From the IMG/VR virus record IMGVR_UViG_3300010885_004199, positions 1 to 24,243 of that record: a stretch of 24,243 nt of DNA; one strand, 5' to 3'. Both the position numbers and the translations under genes were made by a program. Positions 17,924-24,243 of the stretch are shown here, in pieces. Position 1 is the first letter of the stretch. Every line of letters starts with the position of its first letter. Below the pieces are notes generated by a model, which saw only the letters and a list, made by a program, of their open reading frames with translations, was not told the DNA's origin and made no database searches. Source of the DNA: a virus.

Positions 17924-19412
17924 TTGGCACTCCGATTGGCAAGGGTTGCGGGGCGGGCTGCTTCGTGACAACGCCTGCCACGATTGCCGCCACCTGTTCG
18001 GGCGTGAGTTGCGGGAACGAAGCGGCTAGCACAGCGGTGGCTCCGTCAGGAGTCAGCAGGCCGGTCGAGATATTGGTCAGCACTTCCAGCAGGCTAGTGA
18101 TCTGCGCACCATTCAGAGCCGCCGCAGCGAAGTTTGCTTCGACGTCCGGTTCCGGCGCGGGTGCAGACTCAGCAACCGGGGCGGACTCCTCCACGGCAGG
18201 CGCAGACTCGACAGGTTCAGCCGACATTCGCTCCACCGTCGTCATGTTCAACGGGAAGAAATGCGAGTCGCCACCTTCGACCGGGTTCAGACTTTCAGCA
18301 GCGCGGGCCTCGTTGACGCTCATCACGCCACGGTCGATCATGCTGGTGAGGTACTGGCTCCGAGCGGCAACGTCGCCACGGAGTAGGCCACGTACGTCGA
18401 ACTCGACGAAGTATTCCTCAGGCTGCGTGATGAGGTCGCGGGTGAACGCAGACTCGAAACGCCGCAGCCATGGCAGCACAGAATACTGAACGAAGTCCAG
18501 AGACTGCTGTTCGATGTTGCTGAACGTCGCCCGGTCAAGGGACTGAACCAAATGCGGCGGCACTCTGTAGAGTCGGCAGATTTCTTCGACTTGGAAGCGG
18601 CGAGCCTCCAGAAATTGCGAGTCGGTATTTGTCGATCCGAGTTCGTGGGCCTTGAGTCCTCCAGTCAGCACCGCAGTCTTGCTCGACTTATCCGGCCCCC
18701 GGTGCATCCGTTCCCAATTTTCTCGAAGCCTTTCCGCAGCCTCGGCGGCTAGGTTCCCATCCGTCTCAAGCACAATGCCAGGACGAGCACCGTTTCCGAA
18801 ATAGCGAGCCCCGTGCATCTCGCAAGCGCGAGCCAGCCCGATCGCCTCTTTGCCCAGGTCAATTGGAACCTGTCCAACGATGCCGTCGTTGCTCATCCAC
18901 CTGATATGCAGAATCTGGTCTTGAGCGTAGACAGTCTTTGAACCAGACGGCTCCGTGTACGTGTATCGCAGTCGTCCGTTCTCAATTCGCTCGACCTGCA
19001 TCCGGCTAGGGTGCAGCGGTATGAGTTCGCTAATTGCTCCAGCAGCCCCCGCACAGATTTCGCTGTAGCAGTTTCCATAGAGTCCCAAGTGAATCATGCT
19101 CGTCTCGCGCCACTCAAACGAAGTCATCCACCCGTTCGGCGAGACAGCGAGCAGTTGATCCATCCAGCCAGGGTATCGCTCCTTGCCGCCAGTCGGCAGC
19201 CGTCGAAAAACGTGGACTGGGAGGCACGCAACCGTTTCAGCCAGAACTCGCACACACGCCAAAACGCACGTTGACTTAAACGCGTTCTCACTGGTGATTC
19301 GAACGCCCGACGAAGCGCCGCGTGCGAATCCGTAGTCGTCATCCAGCAGCGACCCGAAGAACCGTTGCTCGGTTGATACGTCCCACACGGCGGAAATGAT
19401 CTGGTCGCTCAT
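17901..19412 (-). CDS. HK97-family portal protein
   Basis: The 503-residue protein has the HK97 portal features: FKSTCVLACVRVLAETVACLPVHVFRR (about 45-71), LIPLHPSRMQVER, ARPGIVLETDGN, and FLEARRFQVEEICRLYRVPPHLV, followed by NIEQQSLDFVQYSVLPWLRRFE. It forms the dodecameric ring for DNA entry and exit. The last 100 residues are an extension: an Ala/Pro/Glu-rich linker with repeated ESAP/AESAP units, then LNGAQITSLLEVLTNISTGLLTPDGATAVLAASFPQLTPEQ, a helical module also seen at the end of some portal-type proteins. The ATG overlaps the terminase stop by 4 bp (ATGA). Confidence 0.93.
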   Translation of the reverse strand: MSDQIISAVWDVSTEQRFFGSLLDDDYGFARGASSGVRITSENAFKSTCVLACVRVLAETVACLPVHVFRRLPTGGKERYPGWMDQLLAVSPNGWMTSFEWRETSMIHLGLYGNCYSEICAGAAGAISELIPLHPSRMQVERIENGRLRYTYTEPSGSKTVYAQDQILHIRWMSNDGIVGQVPIDLGKEAIGLARACEMHGARYFGNGARPGIVLETDGNLAAEAAERLRENWERMHRGPDKSSKTAVLTGGLKAHELGSTNTDSQFLEARRFQVEEICRLYRVPPHLVQSLDRATFSNIEQQSLDFVQYSVLPWLRRFESAFTRDLITQPEEYFVEFDVRGLLRGDVAARSQYLTSMIDRGVMSVNEARAAESLNPVEGGDSHFFPLNMTTVERMSAEPVESAPAVEESAPVAESAPAPEPDVEANFAAAALNGAQITSLLEVLTNISTGLLTPDGATAVLAASFPQLTPEQVAAIVAGVVTKQPAPQPLPIGVPNVDPANA

Positions 19413-21022
19413 AGAAGAATGATCTCGGGTTCAGCGGGGGGCGGTTCCTTGCTCTCGGCAGACCACGCGCCGAGAGCCATCACGAGAGCGATGATTCCGT
19501 CCACCCTCTCCGTTGATGATTCCTTCGGCTTGACTGGTCGTATGTGCCCATCGGCGTTCTGCCTCACCGCAACATTGCCAGCCTGCCACTGAAGGACGGG
19601 GTTGCCGCCGTGTCGAAGTTTCCCGCCAGCGAGCAGTGACTCCAGCAGTTTGCTCGGGGCGTTCATCCCAGCGAACCCCTGCGGCCATAGAACCATGTTC
19701 AGTCCGTCGCCCTGCAGTTGGTTCGACAACTGCGTGGCGTTCCATCGGTCAATCGCCAGCCGCTTCACGTTGTAAGTGCTTGCAAACGCAGCAACGTCTC
19801 GGCGGATAACGTCATAGTCAGTCACGTTCCCGCTCGTCGCAGTCACGCACCCCGACTCCACCCATTGTAAAAACGGAACCCTGTCCCGTCTTTCACGCTC
19901 CGTCATGTTGTCTAGCGGTATCCAGAACTTCGCCAAGACGTCGAGCGTCCCATCCTCGCACGGGAACACAGCAACGAAGGCCGAGGTGTCAGTCGTCGAT
20001 GCCAAGTCAAGCCCGCACCAGCACTCCCGGCCAGCGAGGTCGTGCGGAGGCGTTGCGTTCGCAGCCTGCCACGCTTCCATTTTGATCCACCGGGTGTCTT
20101 GGCTCGTCCACTGATTCAGCCGGTAGCGGCGAAATGACCCCTCTTTGCTCACTGACATTTGTGCTTCGTGACAGTCAGCAGCGAAGTCCGACTCGTTTAT
20201 CGTCACCCCCCAGGACGGATTCGCCTTCGGCCATACTTCCGAATCCTTCCAGTCGTCCTCGGTCGGAACTTCATGGATGCAAGGGTAGAACGTCGGGTCG
20301 TGTTTCCAGTCAGCCAGCACTGCCTTCGCGTAGCTGTATTGCTCGTAGCAGATGCTCGACCTGTCGTAGCCAGCCGTGGTGATGCTCACGAGCAGCGGCT
20401 GGCTTCGGGCTGCTCCACCATACCGGAGCGAGTCGAACAGGCGGCGGTCGCGTGCAGCATGAAGCTCGTCATACAACAGTCCGTGAATGTTCAGACCCTC
20501 CGCACGAAACGCATCCGCAGACAGCACTCTGTAAAACGAAGACGCCTGCCGGTATGCAATCGTGCGGCGTGAGTCGATGACCTCCAGCACAGTCGAGAGC
20601 ATTGGCGACGCTCGCACCATGCTGGCTGCTTCACGGAACACAATCGAAGCGGACTCACGATCCGTTGCCGCGCCGTAGATTTCGGCCCCCGCTTCGCCGT
20701 CAGCGAGCAGCAGGTACAGCCCCACGCCAGCCAGGATCGTCGACTTGCCGGACTTCTTGGCAGTGCTGACATACGCCATGCGGTACCGACGCATATCGTT
20801 GTCGACTCTCACCCACCCAAACAACTCGGCCAGCATTTCCTGCTGCCACTCCAGCAGCGTGAACGACTGACCGGCGAATCTTCCCTTAGAGTGGCGAAGC
20901 CAGTCATGGAAAAACTCTATAACGTGGTTCGCCTTTTTTGGATCGAAGTAGAAGTCAAGCCCCTGCGCCGCCGCTTCGCTTTTTGACAAAGGCTGCAAGC
21001 GGATCGTCTTGTTGGCTTCCAT
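19409..21022 (-). CDS. terL: Terminase large subunit (ATPase/nuclease)
   Basis: The ATPase motor motifs are a deviant Walker A STAKKSGKST (86-95), Walker B GLLYDE (181-186) and coupling motif ITTAG (214-218). The nuclease domain has acidic residues at GLDLAS (D339), AIDRWN (D425) and RVDGI (D508), the RNase H-like metal triad. This is the Terminase_1 type used by HK97-like phages to cut and pump DNA into heads. At 537 residues it is full length. The ATG at 21022 has AGGTGA 7 nt upstream and lies 68 bp inside the small-subunit gene. It is coupled to the portal gene by an ATGA overlap. Confidence 0.95.
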   Translation of the reverse strand: MEANKTIRLQPLSKSEAAAQGLDFYFDPKKANHVIEFFHDWLRHSKGRFAGQSFTLLEWQQEMLAELFGWVRVDNDMRRYRMAYVSTAKKSGKSTILAGVGLYLLLADGEAGAEIYGAATDRESASIVFREAASMVRASPMLSTVLEVIDSRRTIAYRQASSFYRVLSADAFRAEGLNIHGLLYDELHAARDRRLFDSLRYGGAARSQPLLVSITTAGYDRSSICYEQYSYAKAVLADWKHDPTFYPCIHEVPTEDDWKDSEVWPKANPSWGVTINESDFAADCHEAQMSVSKEGSFRRYRLNQWTSQDTRWIKMEAWQAANATPPHDLAGRECWCGLDLASTTDTSAFVAVFPCEDGTLDVLAKFWIPLDNMTERERRDRVPFLQWVESGCVTATSGNVTDYDVIRRDVAAFASTYNVKRLAIDRWNATQLSNQLQGDGLNMVLWPQGFAGMNAPSKLLESLLAGGKLRHGGNPVLQWQAGNVAVRQNADGHIRPVKPKESSTERVDGIIALVMALGAWSAESKEPPPAEPEIILL

Positions 21023-21479
21023 TCGTTGTCACCTGTGACCGGCTGCTCGGCGTCATGCCGAACTCTTGCTCAATCCGAAGCATCGCCATGTGGTGCTTGT
21101 GCATCTGGGACGCCCACGGTGCGACCTGCGTGTATTTGATTCGCAGCTTGCCATCGGTTCGATTCGGGTCAGGCTCCCAGTGGATGTACTCCTCGCCCGC
21201 TGACTTCACTTTCTCATAGCACGCAAGGTACAGCACCGTTTCGATGCAGTATCGCGTCAGCGTCGGAACGTCAGCGTCAGTCAGAACTCGCATCCGTGCC
21301 AATTTCGGAACCGTGTCAGCCCAGACTTCGATGCACTTTCCCTCAAGCACCTTCGGCGGCGGGAAGTCAAACGCAATGAGTGCAGGAGTTGGCTCCGCAG
21401 TATTCAACGCTTCCTTGCTCGGGTTCCCTCGGATGTATTTCAGAATCGAAGGCTCGGGGGCCGGGCCACGCTTTCCCAT
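20955..21479 (-). CDS. terS: Terminase small subunit (P27 family)
   Basis: The 174-residue protein begins MGKRGPAPEP and continues ILKYIRGNPSKEALN, EPTP, then EVWADTVPKLARMRVLTDADVPTLTRYC, the classical P27-family sequence of small terminase subunits that recognise phage DNA for packaging. The ATG at 21479 (GAGG 5 nt upstream) is preferred over a longer frame to 21536, which has no family match and lies inside the glycosyltransferase gene. It ends with a basic, disordered tail and overlaps the large-subunit gene by 68 bp. It follows the glycosyltransferase stop by 2 bp, showing that packaging and modification genes share a transcript. Confidence 0.92.
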   Translation of the reverse strand: MGKRGPAPEPSILKYIRGNPSKEALNTAEPTPALIAFDFPPPKVLEGKCIEVWADTVPKLARMRVLTDADVPTLTRYCIETVLYLACYEKVKSAGEEYIHWEPDPNRTDGKLRIKYTQVAPWASQMHKHHMAMLRIEQEFGMTPSSRSQVTTNGSQQDDPLAAFVKKRSGGAGA

Positions 21480-21481
21480 CA

Positions 21482-22354
21482 CTACCTCGCTTTGCGGTAC
21501 TTGTCGGAGATGATTCTCGGCACGGCATACTTCCACTGAACCATGTGATGAACACGACGGTTCGTATCACCCATCATAGAAACCTTGACGCACGACGGCG
21601 CATACATGACGGTCGTGAATGCCTTCACGTACGTGCCATAGTCCCGGTACATGTCAGAGACTCCACCACCCTGCGACTGAGTTGGAAGTTGCGAGACCCT
21701 CAACCGTGGAGCCGTGAAGAAAAGCTCGCCGCGACCACCGGACACGACATACGCAGTGACGTCCTCGTTCATGATCCCTCGGAAGTCGATAGGCCGGTCA
21801 ACGTGGCAAAGGAAGGTGTTCATGGCCTTCCGTGCGAAGCGGCCCTCCGCCGCGAGCATGGCGAATCGCCCCTTCCCACCGCCAATGAAGTCACCGCCCT
21901 GAGAAAACGCCAGCGTTTTCGCCCCGCTTGTTTCGAGGAACTCCAGGCAGGCGGCAAGCACGTTATCGATATTGAGAATTCGGCTTGACGCATTTGCGTT
22001 GAGAAATCTCCCACGGTTGTCCGACGACCAGTTGAAGGTCGTATAGTCGTCGTCAAGCTGCCAGAAATATCGAAGCCCTAGTTTTCTGGCAACGTCGTAC
22101 GCTGCGTGGCGGGCGAACAGAATCCCAGCACGTTTCCCCAGGTTGTTCCCTGAGTCGCAGCGGCCGACGTACTCCTGCTTATTGAACACGACAACAGCGT
22201 CACCATATTCCTGCTCGTACGCGGCACGCTGGTCGTCCTCGTCGTCGAGCAGGATAAAGAGCTTGCCCGTATAGCCGGATCGCATGAGCGAGCGGTACGT
22301 CACGACATTTTTTGCTCTGCCGTGAGTCAGAATGAACGTGGCGAAGTTTTCCAC
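21482..22354 (-). CDS. TET-associated-type glycosyltransferase (TAGT-like), putative DNA base glycosyltransferase
   Basis: The 290-residue protein matches the pattern of the glycosyltransferase family found beside phage TET/JBP oxygenases (and as a domain of animal GREB1). ATFILTHGR at 5-13 is followed by VVTYRSLMRSGYTGKLFILLDDED, then LGLRYFWQLDDDYTTF with the nucleotide-sugar-binding acidic DDD at 101-103. The C-terminus has QGGGVSDMYRDYGTYVKAF, a MYAPSCVKVSMMG segment and RVHHMVQWKYAVPRI. Members are proposed to add sugars to oxidised 5-methylcytosine in phage DNA. The GTG at 22354 overlaps the ParB-like stop by one base, with AAGGA 7 nt upstream. No TET/JBP gene is in the window, so the substrate is inferred. 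The call is from motif memory; the match across the whole length is convincing. Confidence 0.85.
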   Translation of the reverse strand: MENFATFILTHGRAKNVVTYRSLMRSGYTGKLFILLDDEDDQRAAYEQEYGDAVVVFNKQEYVGRCDSGNNLGKRAGILFARHAAYDVARKLGLRYFWQLDDDYTTFNWSSDNRGRFLNANASSRILNIDNVLAACLEFLETSGAKTLAFSQGGDFIGGGKGRFAMLAAEGRFARKAMNTFLCHVDRPIDFRGIMNEDVTAYVVSGGRGELFFTAPRLRVSQLPTQSQGGGVSDMYRDYGTYVKAFTTVMYAPSCVKVSMMGDTNRRVHHMVQWKYAVPRIISDKYRKAR

Positions 22355-23139
22355 TATTTGTCCTTTTCGCTTGCGTACGACTCACGAAGCAACTCACCGA
22401 GCCTCGCCCATCCGTTTTCGATTGCCTTGTCAACGTCCACGATCACGCAGGCACTGTTCTCGAAAAGCCTCTGCACCTCAGGTTCAGAGCCAGCATAGTA
22501 GTTTGCAACGCGCTCGAAATCGAAGACAACGTGCCGCATCGCAGCCATTCGCAGGAACTCTTTCTCGTCCTCAGGCACTCCGCTCGCCTCAATCTCTGCG
22601 AGCAGTTGCTTTGCCTTTGAGGAGTCGCAGAGTTCGGGCAGCGTCGGCTTCGGCCCCGTGACCTCGTAAGGCGGCGCGCCGATCTTTGCCGTGTACGGGT
22701 TGTCTCCACCTTCATCGTCCACCAGTTCGTCGCTGAGACCAGCGCTAGAGGAAACGAAGTCGAGCAGCGTCTTGACAGATTCGTTGTCCGTCGAGACTTG
22801 CCCCAGCAGCGCAGCGAGTTTTTCCTCGTCAGCGACAGCCATCGCAGCCAGCGGGTCGAGGGTTGCCAGGATTGTGTCGGCTTCCTCCTCGGTAACGTCG
22901 AGTACCAAAACTGGTACGGTCTCGTCAGCAGCAGTCTCGGCACGAAGGTGCCCATCGACCAGCATGAGTTCGCCGTTAGGTAACTCCCTCGCAAGACACG
23001 CATCGGCGAATCCAATTTCCTCCAGCACGCCACGCAGTGCAGACTTCTGAGAATCAGGATGCGTTCGCCAGTTTTTGGGGTTCGGGATCAGTTGCGAAGC
23101 GGGTACTCGGCGGAACTCTTTGATTCGATCCTTAAACAT
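22354..23139 (-). CDS. ParB/Srx-like nuclease-domain protein
   Basis: The N-terminal half matches the ParB-like fold: VPASQLIPNPKNWRTHP, then ALRGVLEEIGFAD and ELMLVDGHLRAETA with the DGHxR motif at 62-66, followed by VPVLVLDVTEEEADTILATLDPLAAMA. The C-terminal half is a second conserved-looking domain (SKAKQLLAEIEASGVPEDEKEFLRMAAMRHVVFDFERVANYY) with AMRH. In phages such proteins occur beside DNA modification enzymes and may act as nucleases, CTP-binding proteins or specificity factors. The ATG at 23139 has GGGAG at ideal 8-nt spacing; the ATG at 23145, two residues longer, is too close to that site. It overlaps the radical SAM gene by 8 bp. No methyltransferase domain is fused. Confidence 0.85.
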   Translation of the reverse strand: MFKDRIKEFRRVPASQLIPNPKNWRTHPDSQKSALRGVLEEIGFADACLARELPNGELMLVDGHLRAETAADETVPVLVLDVTEEEADTILATLDPLAAMAVADEEKLAALLGQVSTDNESVKTLLDFVSSSAGLSDELVDDEGGDNPYTAKIGAPPYEVTGPKPTLPELCDSSKAKQLLAEIEASGVPEDEKEFLRMAAMRHVVFDFERVANYYAGSEPEVQRLFENSACVIVDVDKAIENGWARLGELLRESYASEKDK

Positions 23140-24103
23140 TCGCATCGCTCCCAGGGTTCAAGCACGGGCCGCAAACGGGATGCGATGCCCACTGTCCAGA
23201 CGCGTGCGTGTTCCTCAACTCCACCAACGACGGGTGGTTCCAAGCATCTCGCAGCGACATATTGTTGACGTTCCCGACGATCAGTTTCTTGCCAGCCAGC
23301 TTGCAGCACGGCTGAATGTTCCCCAGGTGGTCAACGACGAGTTGCTTAAACGGGAAGTCACAACCACTCGCCTTGCTTTCAATCACGGGCAGGGTCAGAT
23401 TCGTCACCCGATCGGGAACCTCATTCATCGTCTGGAAAGTCACAATGTCAGCGACGTTCTCCCACTGCCTTCTGAACTGTTCTTCCTCGTGGATGTTGAC
23501 AGCGTTCTTGAGAAAGCTGACTCGCACCAGCGGGAAGCCCAGGCCACGAGCGTTCCGCATCTCAATGAACCGCAGCACGTTCGCCACCACGAGGCCGAAC
23601 TTACCAGACAGTCGTTGCTTGTCGTACGTCTCAGGCGTTGCAGCGTCGATGCTGATGAATAGTTTCGTCAGCCCGCAGCCTAGCAGCGACTCCGATCTGC
23701 TCTCAGTCAGCAGGGTGCCATTCGTCACCACGAACACGTTGATGATCCCAGCATCGCGGGCAAAACGGATGCACTCCTCCAGGTCGCGGCGCATCAACGG
23801 CTCGTTGATGTAGTTGAGCTTGAGACTCTTTGTGCCAAGTGAGACAGCCTCCCGCAGCACCTTTTCGAAGACGTCTCGCCCCAGGTTCACGTTCGGGATT
23901 TTGTCGTACCCGTGGATGCAGAACGGGCAACGCATGTTGCAGCCACCGTTCAGTTCGACGTCGATCTGGATTGGGAAGTCAGCCGGTTGCAACTTCTCCC
24001 GGCGGGCAAACTCGGCTCGGAACTCCACCCACTGCTGCGGGTCAACGTCGGGCGGGCAGCGACTCAGCAGTTCACGCCCCACAATGTCGAAAAATGCGTC
24101 CAT
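23132..24103 (-). CDS. Radical SAM enzyme with SPASM-like C-terminus
   Basis: The 323-residue protein has the CxxxCxxC cluster motif at C55, C59 and C62 (GGCNMRCPFC), a GTNG-like VVTNGT near 127-130, and SISIDAATPETYD near 150-161, all typical of the radical SAM core. The C-terminal third has C248, C266/C267 and C311/C314, resembling the SPASM/twitch auxiliary iron-sulfur site. Such enzymes use S-adenosylmethionine to start radical reactions, often on peptides or carbohydrates; an auxiliary cluster suggests a substrate contact or redox step. It lies upstream of the ParB-like and glycosyltransferase genes in the operon, so a role in base or sugar modification is plausible. The ATG at 24103 has GAGG 7 nt upstream. 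It does not look like the shorter QueE enzymes. The substrate is unknown. Confidence 0.88.
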   Translation of the reverse strand: MDAFFDIVGRELLSRCPPDVDPQQWVEFRAEFARREKLQPADFPIQIDVELNGGCNMRCPFCIHGYDKIPNVNLGRDVFEKVLREAVSLGTKSLKLNYINEPLMRRDLEECIRFARDAGIINVFVVTNGTLLTESRSESLLGCGLTKLFISIDAATPETYDKQRLSGKFGLVVANVLRFIEMRNARGLGFPLVRVSFLKNAVNIHEEEQFRRQWENVADIVTFQTMNEVPDRVTNLTLPVIESKASGCDFPFKQLVVDHLGNIQPCCKLAGKKLIVGNVNNMSLRDAWNHPSLVELRNTHASGQWASHPVCGPCLNPGSDANV

Positions 24104-24243
24104 CCTTGGACCTCACGTTCGTGTTTGGATACCAGAACAATGCTTTTCGGTAGCGAAAAAGCCTATTAAAAGAGTGTTTTTTCGCACGCAAAAGGTCAAA
24201 AATACCCGGCTACCCCACCCCCCCCTGCAAAACTCCCGGCCAC
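24104..24243 (-). promoter_or_regulatory. AT-rich leader upstream of the late operon, possible promoter and hairpin
   Basis: No gene is supported here. The first 90 bases upstream of the radical SAM gene are clearly more AT-rich than the rest of the window. Minus-strand TTGCGT (24191-24186) and TAATAG (24168-24163) are 17 nt apart, a weak sigma70-like pair. An imperfect hairpin GCTTTTTCG/CGAAAAGC lies at 24142-24162. A run of eight C on the + strand sits at 24218-24225. A short frame from the edge ends at about 24196 and could be the tail of a neighbouring gene, which cannot be decided here. Confidence 0.3.

Follow-up and report, generated by a model that had tools for sequence, protein, structure and literature searches.

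Gene content and organization of the locus

The window analyzed here, 24,243 nucleotides in length, comprises the whole IMG/VR fragment, so that the record holds nothing to the right of it. ORF calling on the minus strand yielded the gene order radical SAM/SPASM enzyme, ParB-like protein, TAGT-family glycosyltransferase, TerS and TerL (Table 1). In agreement with the original prediction of a trio tightly packed ahead of terS, the ORFs together with Pfam and PHROGs searches bear out the identities of all three proteins. The radical SAM and ParB-like genes overlap by 14 bp (8 bp if the second ATG serves as start), the TAG stop codon of the latter and the GTG start codon of the TAGT gene have one base in common, and 2 bp separate the TAGT gene from terS. 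The leader upstream of the cassette possibly lies near the end of the packaged genome. In the related loci L002 and L004, the contigs end 151 and 244 bases ahead of the radical SAM ORF, respectively.

Table 1. Features of the cassette and the adjoining terminase genes in the window.
Feature	Position	Strand	Basis
Leader of 140 bases up to the contig end	24104..24243	-	L002 and L004 contigs end comparably near the radical SAM gene
Radical SAM/SPASM enzyme (323 aa), encoded first in the cassette	23132..24103	-	Pfam Radical_SAM 1e-13, SPASM 4.8e-11
ParB-like ORF	22354-23145	-	phrog_620, Noc/ParB profile match, model fold
ParB/Srx-like N-terminal head, residues 1-128	22762..23145	-	Noc/ParB profile 2.3e-9, Foldseek 1.9e-5
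C-terminal partner domain, about residues 150-263	22357..22698	-	Block conserved in alignment A3
TAGT-family glycosyltransferase, 290 aa, GTG start	21482..22354	-	Pfam PF20691 5.8e-35
Terminase small subunit TerS	20955..21479	-	Pfam Terminase_4 1.9e-16
Terminase large subunit TerL	19409..21022	-	Pfam TerL_nuclease 4.6e-43, TerL_ATPase 2.3e-28

Features of the encoded proteins

The ParB-like protein matches phrog_620 (1.8e-20), its family profile matches solved ParB/Noc chains and its structural model, which is of moderate quality (pLDDT 68), resembles Noc/ParB in Foldseek searches (Table 1), while a Pfam scan returned no ParB family among the matches listed. By sequence and predicted fold, the N-terminal domain thus appears to belong to the ParB/Srx superfamily. 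It is followed by a partner domain of about 110 residues, located at the C-terminus of the ORF that precedes TAGT.

TAGT scores 121.5 bits against PF20691, for which the curated cut-off is 27.5, and matches phrog_842 (3.6e-63). An acidic DDD stretch (D101-D103) is invariant in all 22 rows of alignment A2. A fold search retrieved nucleotide-sugar glycosyltransferase chains with Z scores of up to 12.8, which we take to be of the GT-A class, and TAGT is accordingly predicted to adopt a GT-A-like fold with a DxD-type acidic motif. The structural neighbors are mostly protein or glycan glycosyltransferases, which speaks against DNA as the target, though the likeness is at the level of the fold only. 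The TAGT profile matched none of the sequences of solved structures, and NCBIfam searches gave no match for either TAGT or the ParB-like protein.

The radical SAM enzyme carries a CxxxCxxC motif (CNMRCPFC) in addition to the SPASM domain. Its closest solved relatives are BtrN (1.8e-13) and the cytosylglucuronate decarboxylase BlsE (1.1e-8), which act on an amino-cyclitol and on cytosine-linked glucuronate, respectively. A role as sugar or adduct tailor is possible. Editing of sugars is only one reading, since the best NCBIfam scores belong to cofactor and peptide maturases, all far under the cut-off. A search for the radical SAM protein in named phages gave no match.

The ParB-TAGT pair is the conserved core

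Related loci were collected as the best 80 matches per scan, so that the sample leans toward close relatives, and their gene strings are approximate owing to greedy ORF picking. Among the matches listed, a ParB-type ORF directly precedes TAGT in 86/86 loci (L002-L087), with overlaps of 4, 8 or 11 bases when starts are picked by script as those closest to the homologous start. In a set of 139 related loci that leaves out 18 repeated contigs as well as L001, L088 and L089, an ORF with the partner domain lies ahead of TAGT in 138 of the matches listed, and the remaining locus ends at the contig edge. TerL follows at most 2.6 kb downstream in 119 of the 128 testable loci, at a median distance of 470 bases among those with a match (matches listed). 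The conserved core of the cassette is thus the ParB-TAGT pair. Because its order is kept across divergent relatives and a radical SAM gene of the same cluster accompanies it in several loci, the arrangement of the trio is not due to chance.

A second set comprised 159 further loci. The partner domain was present in 34 of these (matches listed), nine of them on contigs of the first set; 33 encode TAGT and one runs off its contig. TAGT was absent from the retrieved stretches of the 61 loci that have a ParB head and lack the partner domain (62 minus L258, a repeat of L173). In addition, the partner domain stands alone ahead of TAGT in L100, L101, L113, L164 and one Vibrio phage. These stand-alone pairs adjoin DNA polymerase A in L101, primase/helicase in L100 and, in the Vibrio phage, genes annotated as DNA ligase and primase; clamp-like genes next to the pairs in L101 and L113 both score below Pfam's cut-off, and the region of L164 contains no clear replication enzyme. 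In L101 and L164 the pair sits away from the terminase. Taken together, the partner domain is a probable obligate partner of TAGT.

An exchangeable slot ahead of the terminase

Behind 39/61 partner-less heads lie homologues of other DNA modifiers. A fused DNA methylase occurs in 22 loci, i.e., in all 22 heads with long tails, TET/JBP in eight, TGT-like proteins with Que genes in six and Mom in three (L278 by Pfam with 1.8e-53, L274 and L292 by similarity). GNAT or formyl transferases are also found, with FkbM alone (three loci) and GNAT (four loci) as weaker cases, and 14 heads are followed by none of the effector families looked for. As TAGT and other DNA modifiers alternate behind homologous ParB heads, TAGT seems to sit in an exchangeable pre-terminase slot for DNA modification. 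A DNA methylase is present in just one of 140 TAGT loci (L109), at its far upstream end; L099, where a PAPS-reductase-like gene precedes the pair by 3.7 kb, is an exception to mutual exclusion.

The radical SAM gene is not a constant part of the cassette, because members of the same cluster adjoin the pair in only 12/140 loci (four TAGT clusters, window included), before ParB in three and after TAGT in nine; the one following TAGT in L085 is distant and has no SPASM match. Sugar genes of several kinds, i.e., radical SAM, UDP-galactopyranose mutase, cytidylyltransferase-like, epimerase, methyltransferase and sulfotransferase, lie next to TAGT in 38/140 loci from 16 clusters vs. 2/61 partner-less heads among the matches listed, a contrast biased upward by the definition of the slot families from TAGT loci. 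A methyltransferase match in L107 (7e-7) was left out as it falls on the TAGT ORF itself. With different donor-making or decorating enzymes at the same place, the adduct should differ between phages.

Mobility of the cassette

The trio of L002 is 93-97% identical to that of the window, compared with 61% for TerL, 49% for the portal and 42% for the capsid protein, and no TAGT was seen in the closest TerL relatives (83-84%). The trio has therefore moved horizontally, independently of terminase and capsid. Among Lactobacillus delbrueckii phages, c5 has retained the whole pair, but only a reduced version is left in Ld17, LL-Ku and Ld25A. This pattern would suit a function that can be dispensed with; Ld17 keeps its terminase nonetheless. 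The TAGT match of phiLdb falls in two pieces across two annotated genes and was not counted as intact. Phage c5 is annotated without integrase and with a cos site at base 1, and its ParB gene starts at base 90.

Proposed function and alternatives

We propose, with a probability of about two in three, that the cassette is a mobile DNA-glycosylation unit of the phage late region. The ParB-like head would hold the enzyme on phage DNA and the C-terminal partner domain would couple it to TAGT, which would move a sugar from an activated donor onto a base of replicated DNA, presumably shortly before the terminase packages it. The radical SAM/SPASM enzyme may edit the sugar, on the donor or on DNA, by oxidation or decarboxylation in analogy with BtrN and BlsE. 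Shielding from host nucleases would be the likely benefit. Of the originally predicted base decorated with a sugar and a radical SAM-derived group at packaging, the packaging-linked position of the unit is supported, DNA is most likely the target, as we infer, and tailoring by the radical SAM enzyme is possible; the route via TET and 5hmC is not supported. It is conceivable, if rather doubtful, that ParB, partner domain and TAGT are self-sufficient and glycosylate an ordinary, never hydroxylated base in duplex DNA, and that the neighboring genes make DNA sugars not seen before, for example oxidised, furanose or sulfated ones.

GREB1 is reported to glycosylate protein. TAGT could likewise modify a DNA-bound or virion protein such as terminase or capsid, with the radical SAM enzyme editing the glycan or a peptide; the fold neighbors of TAGT, the peptide maturases among the sub-threshold NCBIfam matches and the proximity of head genes are in line with this. 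It is nevertheless improbable, as the ParB head is homologous to those fused to DNA methylases and preceding TET, Mom and TGT-like genes, the stand-alone pairs of L100 and L101 adjoin replication genes, the cassette has travelled separately from terminase and capsid, and the best solved relatives of the radical SAM enzyme act on sugars.

The original prediction tied TAGT to TET/JBP and glycosylated cytosine derivatives. In the canonical 5hmC pathway, the hydroxyl group would come from a TET or hydroxymethylase whose gene lies in another part of the phage genome, or else from an enzyme of the host. The family name and the T-even and kinetoplastid relatives (T6 in the excerpt of PMC13216743) would fit, as would the fragmentary nature of the window. 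However, Tet_JBP, C5-methylase (PF00145) and thymidylate synthase (PF00303) families, the last including dCMP hydroxymethylase, were found in 0/36 TAGT-bearing records tested (the window genome being incomplete), while Tet_JBP matched in 10 of the 12 TAGT-free sister records, eight of which had been preselected as already TET-labelled. Four of these 36 records are complete genomes, those of c5, phi jlb1, HHTV-2 and NTR1, so that TAGT would need an acceptor unlike that of the T-even enzyme. A TET profile built here had no match in the retrieved stretches of 140 TAGT loci or in the window, itself a genome fragment, and 24 unannotated c5 proteins (the largest of 208 aa) contained no known base-modifying domain. 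We therefore dropped this pathway as the default for the TAGT branch and regard it as less probable still than protein glycosylation. In sister phages (L173, L254, L255), TET/JBP loci likewise feature a ParB head, a pre-terminase position and tailoring-type genes; they lack the partner domain and TAGT, just as the tested TAGT loci lack TET, and TET would appear to take the place of TAGT in the slot.

We give little credence to the idea that the head directs site-specific glycosylation near cos or pac and that this regulates the terminase, whether or not it also protects DNA. The terminase neighbors the pair in most loci, the c5 cos site lies close to ParB, and contig ends recur 45-140 bases upstream of partner-less heads (18/47). 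Yet methylases, TET, Mom and Que-type genes fill the same kind of place, the pairs of L101 and L164 lie away from the terminase, and Ld17 retains its terminase with a reduced pair. For TAGT loci in general, contig ends do not recur in this way (8/103 within 50-300 bases), and their relation to packaging ends is kept here as an observation. Lysogenic conversion by alteration of host surface glycans, with which homologues of UDP-galactopyranose mutase, epimerase and sulfotransferase are familiarly associated, is very remote given the integrase-free annotation of c5 and the constant coupling to a ParB-type partner.

Relation to known systems

Mom of phage Mu modifies DNA late, before packaging, by a reaction other than glycosyl transfer. 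Judging by gene order, the cassette may likewise act late and ahead of packaging, and Mom-family genes follow heads homologous to that of the cassette (L278, L274, L292). BtrN and BlsE, although the closest solved relatives of the radical SAM enzyme, stem from antibiotic biosynthesis and are only distantly similar.

The beta-glucosyl-HMC-alpha-glucosyltransferase of T6 belongs to the same Pfam family as the cassette TAGT (PF20691) and, according to the excerpt of PMC13216743, its model has a GT-A-type fold. It acts on glucosylated 5hmC, in contrast to TAGT loci with their lack of thymidylate synthase, TET and C5-methylase families in all 36 records, and unlike it, the cassette TAGT has a ParB-type partner beside the terminase. 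In RB69-type arabinosylation, a sugar is likewise placed on phage DNA as proposed for the cassette; that route relies on a 5-hydroxy-dCMP synthase, the base being made before polymerisation (excerpt of PMC13390438). The excerpt of PMC12783734 describes fusions of ParB with DNA methylases as well as ParB located near CmoX. What the cassette shares with these systems is a ParB domain that adjoins a DNA modifier or is fused to it, but its effector is a glycosyltransferase joined via a partner domain instead of a methylase or carboxymethylase. As to the earlier statement that no described system with exactly this trio was known, no paper on ParB-TAGT ahead of the terminase was found among the top literature matches listed, but the pair itself is common and ParB beside phage DNA modifiers is in print.

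Solitary TAGT genes occur in 288/753 phage genomes and are without tested function according to the excerpt of PMC13216743 (2026). The pairing suggests concretely what the role of some of these genes may be, naming a probable obligate partner and an exchangeable pre-terminase slot. If DNA is modified with no base hydroxylase involved, the chemistry at the acceptor would be new.

A homologous pair with at least 80% query coverage is present in 885/5,426 Escherichia coli genomes. As it is part of a common prophage type, with about 45% (TAGT) and 35% (ParB) identity to the window, laboratory strains are suited to testing the question. A literature search on ynaK showed one genome announcement among the matches listed. 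In E. coli S30, the pair lies between the lysis genes and terS.

Conserved Core of the Cassette

The genes for the radical SAM/SPASM enzyme (rSAM), a ParB-like protein and the glycosyltransferase TAGT (PF20691) lie where the original prediction had placed them, as confirmed by ORF reading, and are followed, after a gap of 2 bp downstream of TAGT, by terS and then by terL, portal, protease and capsid genes. The window is the entire IMG/VR record, itself a genome fragment. Family assignments within the cassette are well supported, ParB excepted on the Pfam side, as a Pfam scan of the window's ParB-like protein returned no ParB family among its matches. Its assignment is based on PHROGs, a family-profile match to solved ParB/Noc proteins and the predicted fold; in a moderate model (pLDDT 68) the fold neighbors of the N-terminal domain are ParB/Noc and sulfiredoxin.

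Cassette genes in the window
Gene	Position	Strand	Basis
rSAM/SPASM	24103-23132	minus	ORF reading
ParB-like	23145-22354	minus	ORF reading
TAGT	22354-21482	minus	ORF reading

The conserved core of the cassette is ParB-TAGT. Among 139 distinct TAGT loci from viral contigs (the best 80 of 150), a second scan (among the matches listed) and bacterial genomes, 138 contain a ParB-type ORF, located at most 150 bases from TAGT in 137 when raw ORF starts are used. The distance outlier, L082, is an artefact of the ORF start, and the locus lacking the ORF, L116, is cut there by the contig end. With script-chosen starts, ParB and TAGT overlap by 4, 8 or 11 bases in 86/86 loci (L002-L087). The pair also occurs in a haloarchaeal virus and on 17 bacterial contigs drawn from many groups. 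Phage records, several of them GenBank/RefSeq doubles, comprise 37 with TAGT and 32 with the ParB, 28 being common to both; in the four ParB-only records the match is confined to residues 4-132, and these are annotated as DNA methylase/methyl transferase (three) or putative sulfiredoxin (one). TET and the enzymes associated with it were surveyed in 2013 by Iyer and colleagues, whose work may already record ParB beside TAGT.

The ParB ORF consists of two domains, an N-terminal head and a C-terminal partner domain. Profiles for both matched 121 of the 138 ParB-type ORFs, while only the partner was matched in ten truncated by a contig end and in seven others, i.e., four short ORFs and three of ~290 aa from Bacteroidales contigs. 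In a second set of 159 further loci, among the matches listed, the partner domain was found in 34 (nine on contigs already counted in the first set), 33 of which contain TAGT; the contig of the remaining one, L327, ends first. Heads without partner domain were accompanied by TAGT in 0/62 loci (61 after repeat removal) within the sequence stretch examined. The partner domain alone precedes TAGT in L100, L101, L113, L164 and a Vibrio phage. These pairs adjoin DNA polymerase A in L101 and primase/helicase in L100, clamp-like matches below Pfam's cut-offs occur in L101 and L113, and a short gene annotated as DNA ligase and a primase gene lie nearby in the Vibrio phage. Around the L164 pair, no replication enzyme could be clearly recognized.

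The Pre-terminase Slot and Its Occupants

Of the 128 testable loci, 119 have a TerL start no more than 2.6 kb downstream, and the number rises to 121 at a limit of 5 kb; the other 11 of the 139 loci were too short for this test, which slightly biases it toward matches. Three TerL profiles gave no match in seven loci, of which at least L163 has, as read from its sequence, a different type of terminase-like gene.

Within 3 kb of the 61 partner-less heads we found fused DNA methylases (22, all confirmed), TET/JBP (8, with L177 added by Pfam), TGT-like proteins with Que genes (6), GNAT with or without formyl transferase (4), Mom (3), FkbM alone (3) and a PAPS-reductase-like gene (1); none of the effector families searched lay that close to 14 heads. 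One representative each of Mom, Tet_JBP, N6_N4_Mtase, FkbM, formyl transferase, PAPS reductase and GNAT was confirmed by Pfam, while Pfam returned nothing for the two TGT-like proteins, whose label comes from reading their sequence and from the adjacent Que genes. Chiefly because partner-less heads lead to DNA-modifier homologues, the TAGT substrate is inferred to lie in DNA, an assignment also drawn from the common heads, the common slot and some replication contexts. In the best reading, the phage DNA would be glycosylated under ParB guidance before it is packaged, and the editing of the sugar would be exchangeable. The literature considered comprised PMC13216743, PMC13390438, PMC12783734 and PMC8670742.

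Several individual loci deserve mention. In sister phages (L254:978-1856, L255:3422-4339, L173, L182) the head is followed by a TET/JBP gene before the terminase, with GT4-like, FkbM or P-loop genes as companions (GT4 and P-loop labels from sequence reading). In L282:4998-8124, L264, L268, L269, L279 and L287 it precedes TGT-like and QueC/QueD/QueE-like genes, so named from sequence reading, the QueE-like one matching Radical_SAM by Pfam; these genes possibly form a 7-deazaguanine DNA cassette that occupies this type of slot. A P-loop/GNAT protein follows the head in L172:1910-3686, L277, L283 and L285, joined by a formyl transferase in two of them, and could possibly represent an undescribed acyl-type DNA modification. 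L257:1775-3895 combines a head with a PAPS-reductase-like gene and, as read from sequence, a second ParB-like and a cupin-like protein.

Acceptor and Proposed Sugar Editing

The original prediction had linked the trio to TET/JBP oxygenases and glycosylated cytosine, a link not supported by the TAGT-bearing relatives. Tet_JBP, C5-methylase and thymidylate-synthase families were each found in 0/36 TAGT records, a selection from the TAGT loci including four complete genomes, and a purpose-built TET profile had no match in the examined stretches of 140 TAGT loci. Control genomes were positive for the C5-methylase and thymidylate-synthase searches and none for Tet_JBP; the latter search was positive in 10/12 sister records, eight labeled TET beforehand. 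In the complete Lactobacillus delbrueckii phage c5 (31.8 kb), 24 unannotated proteins scanned contained no base-modifying domain. As these families are absent from the records examined, T-even/TET logic does not explain the acceptor. At fold level the TAGT model (pLDDT 74) is similar to nucleotide-sugar glycosyltransferases, most of which act on proteins or glycans.

Genes near TAGT encode rSAM (12 loci, 4 clusters), UDP-galactopyranose mutase (10, 3), cytidylyltransferase-like proteins (8, 2), NAD epimerase/dehydratase (7, 6), methyltransferase (4, 3; L107 excluded) and sulfotransferase (4, 1). Any sugar gene was present in 38/140 TAGT loci (16/46 clusters) vs. 2/61 partner-less heads, a contrast biased by the picking of these families from TAGT loci. 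The closest solved relatives of rSAM are BtrN and cytosylglucuronate decarboxylase, a relationship arguing that it may edit a sugar; its top NCBIfam scores, far under cut-off, are to cofactor and peptide maturases and lend no support to sugar editing.

Mobility and Possible Genome Ends

The trio of a related contig, L002, is 93-97% identical to that of the window; for TerS, TerL, portal and capsid identity is 82, 61, 49 and 42%. In L171-L174, TerL is 83-84% identical to the window's, heads are partner-less and TAGT was not found. The pair is complete in the L. delbrueckii phage c5; of the other phages of this host, phiLdb has its TAGT split into two pieces, and reduced forms occur in Ld17, LL-Ku and Ld25A. 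This reduction and the transfer pattern of the trio fit an accessory function.

With the L084 pair as query, matches were obtained in 1,572 of 5,426 complete E. coli genomes and covered at least 80% of its length in 885, a number that may include pairs that are not intact. In E. coli S30 the pair is placed between lysis genes and terS. In other E. coli strains the ParB partner beside the glycosyltransferase is annotated ynaK; the MG1655 Rac prophage retains a short ynaK (L169:7378-7641) that looks like a shortened E. coli ParB partner, with no annotated glycosyltransferase or terminase within the 10 kb viewed.

All three rSAM-first contigs stop 140-244 bases before rSAM (window 24104-24243; L002:1-151; L004:1-244), and in 18/47 partner-less loci the contig ends 45-140 bases before ParB. 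In c5, the annotated cos site lies at base 1 and ParB starts at base 90; by analogy, the recurrent contig ends may mark where the packaged genome ends.
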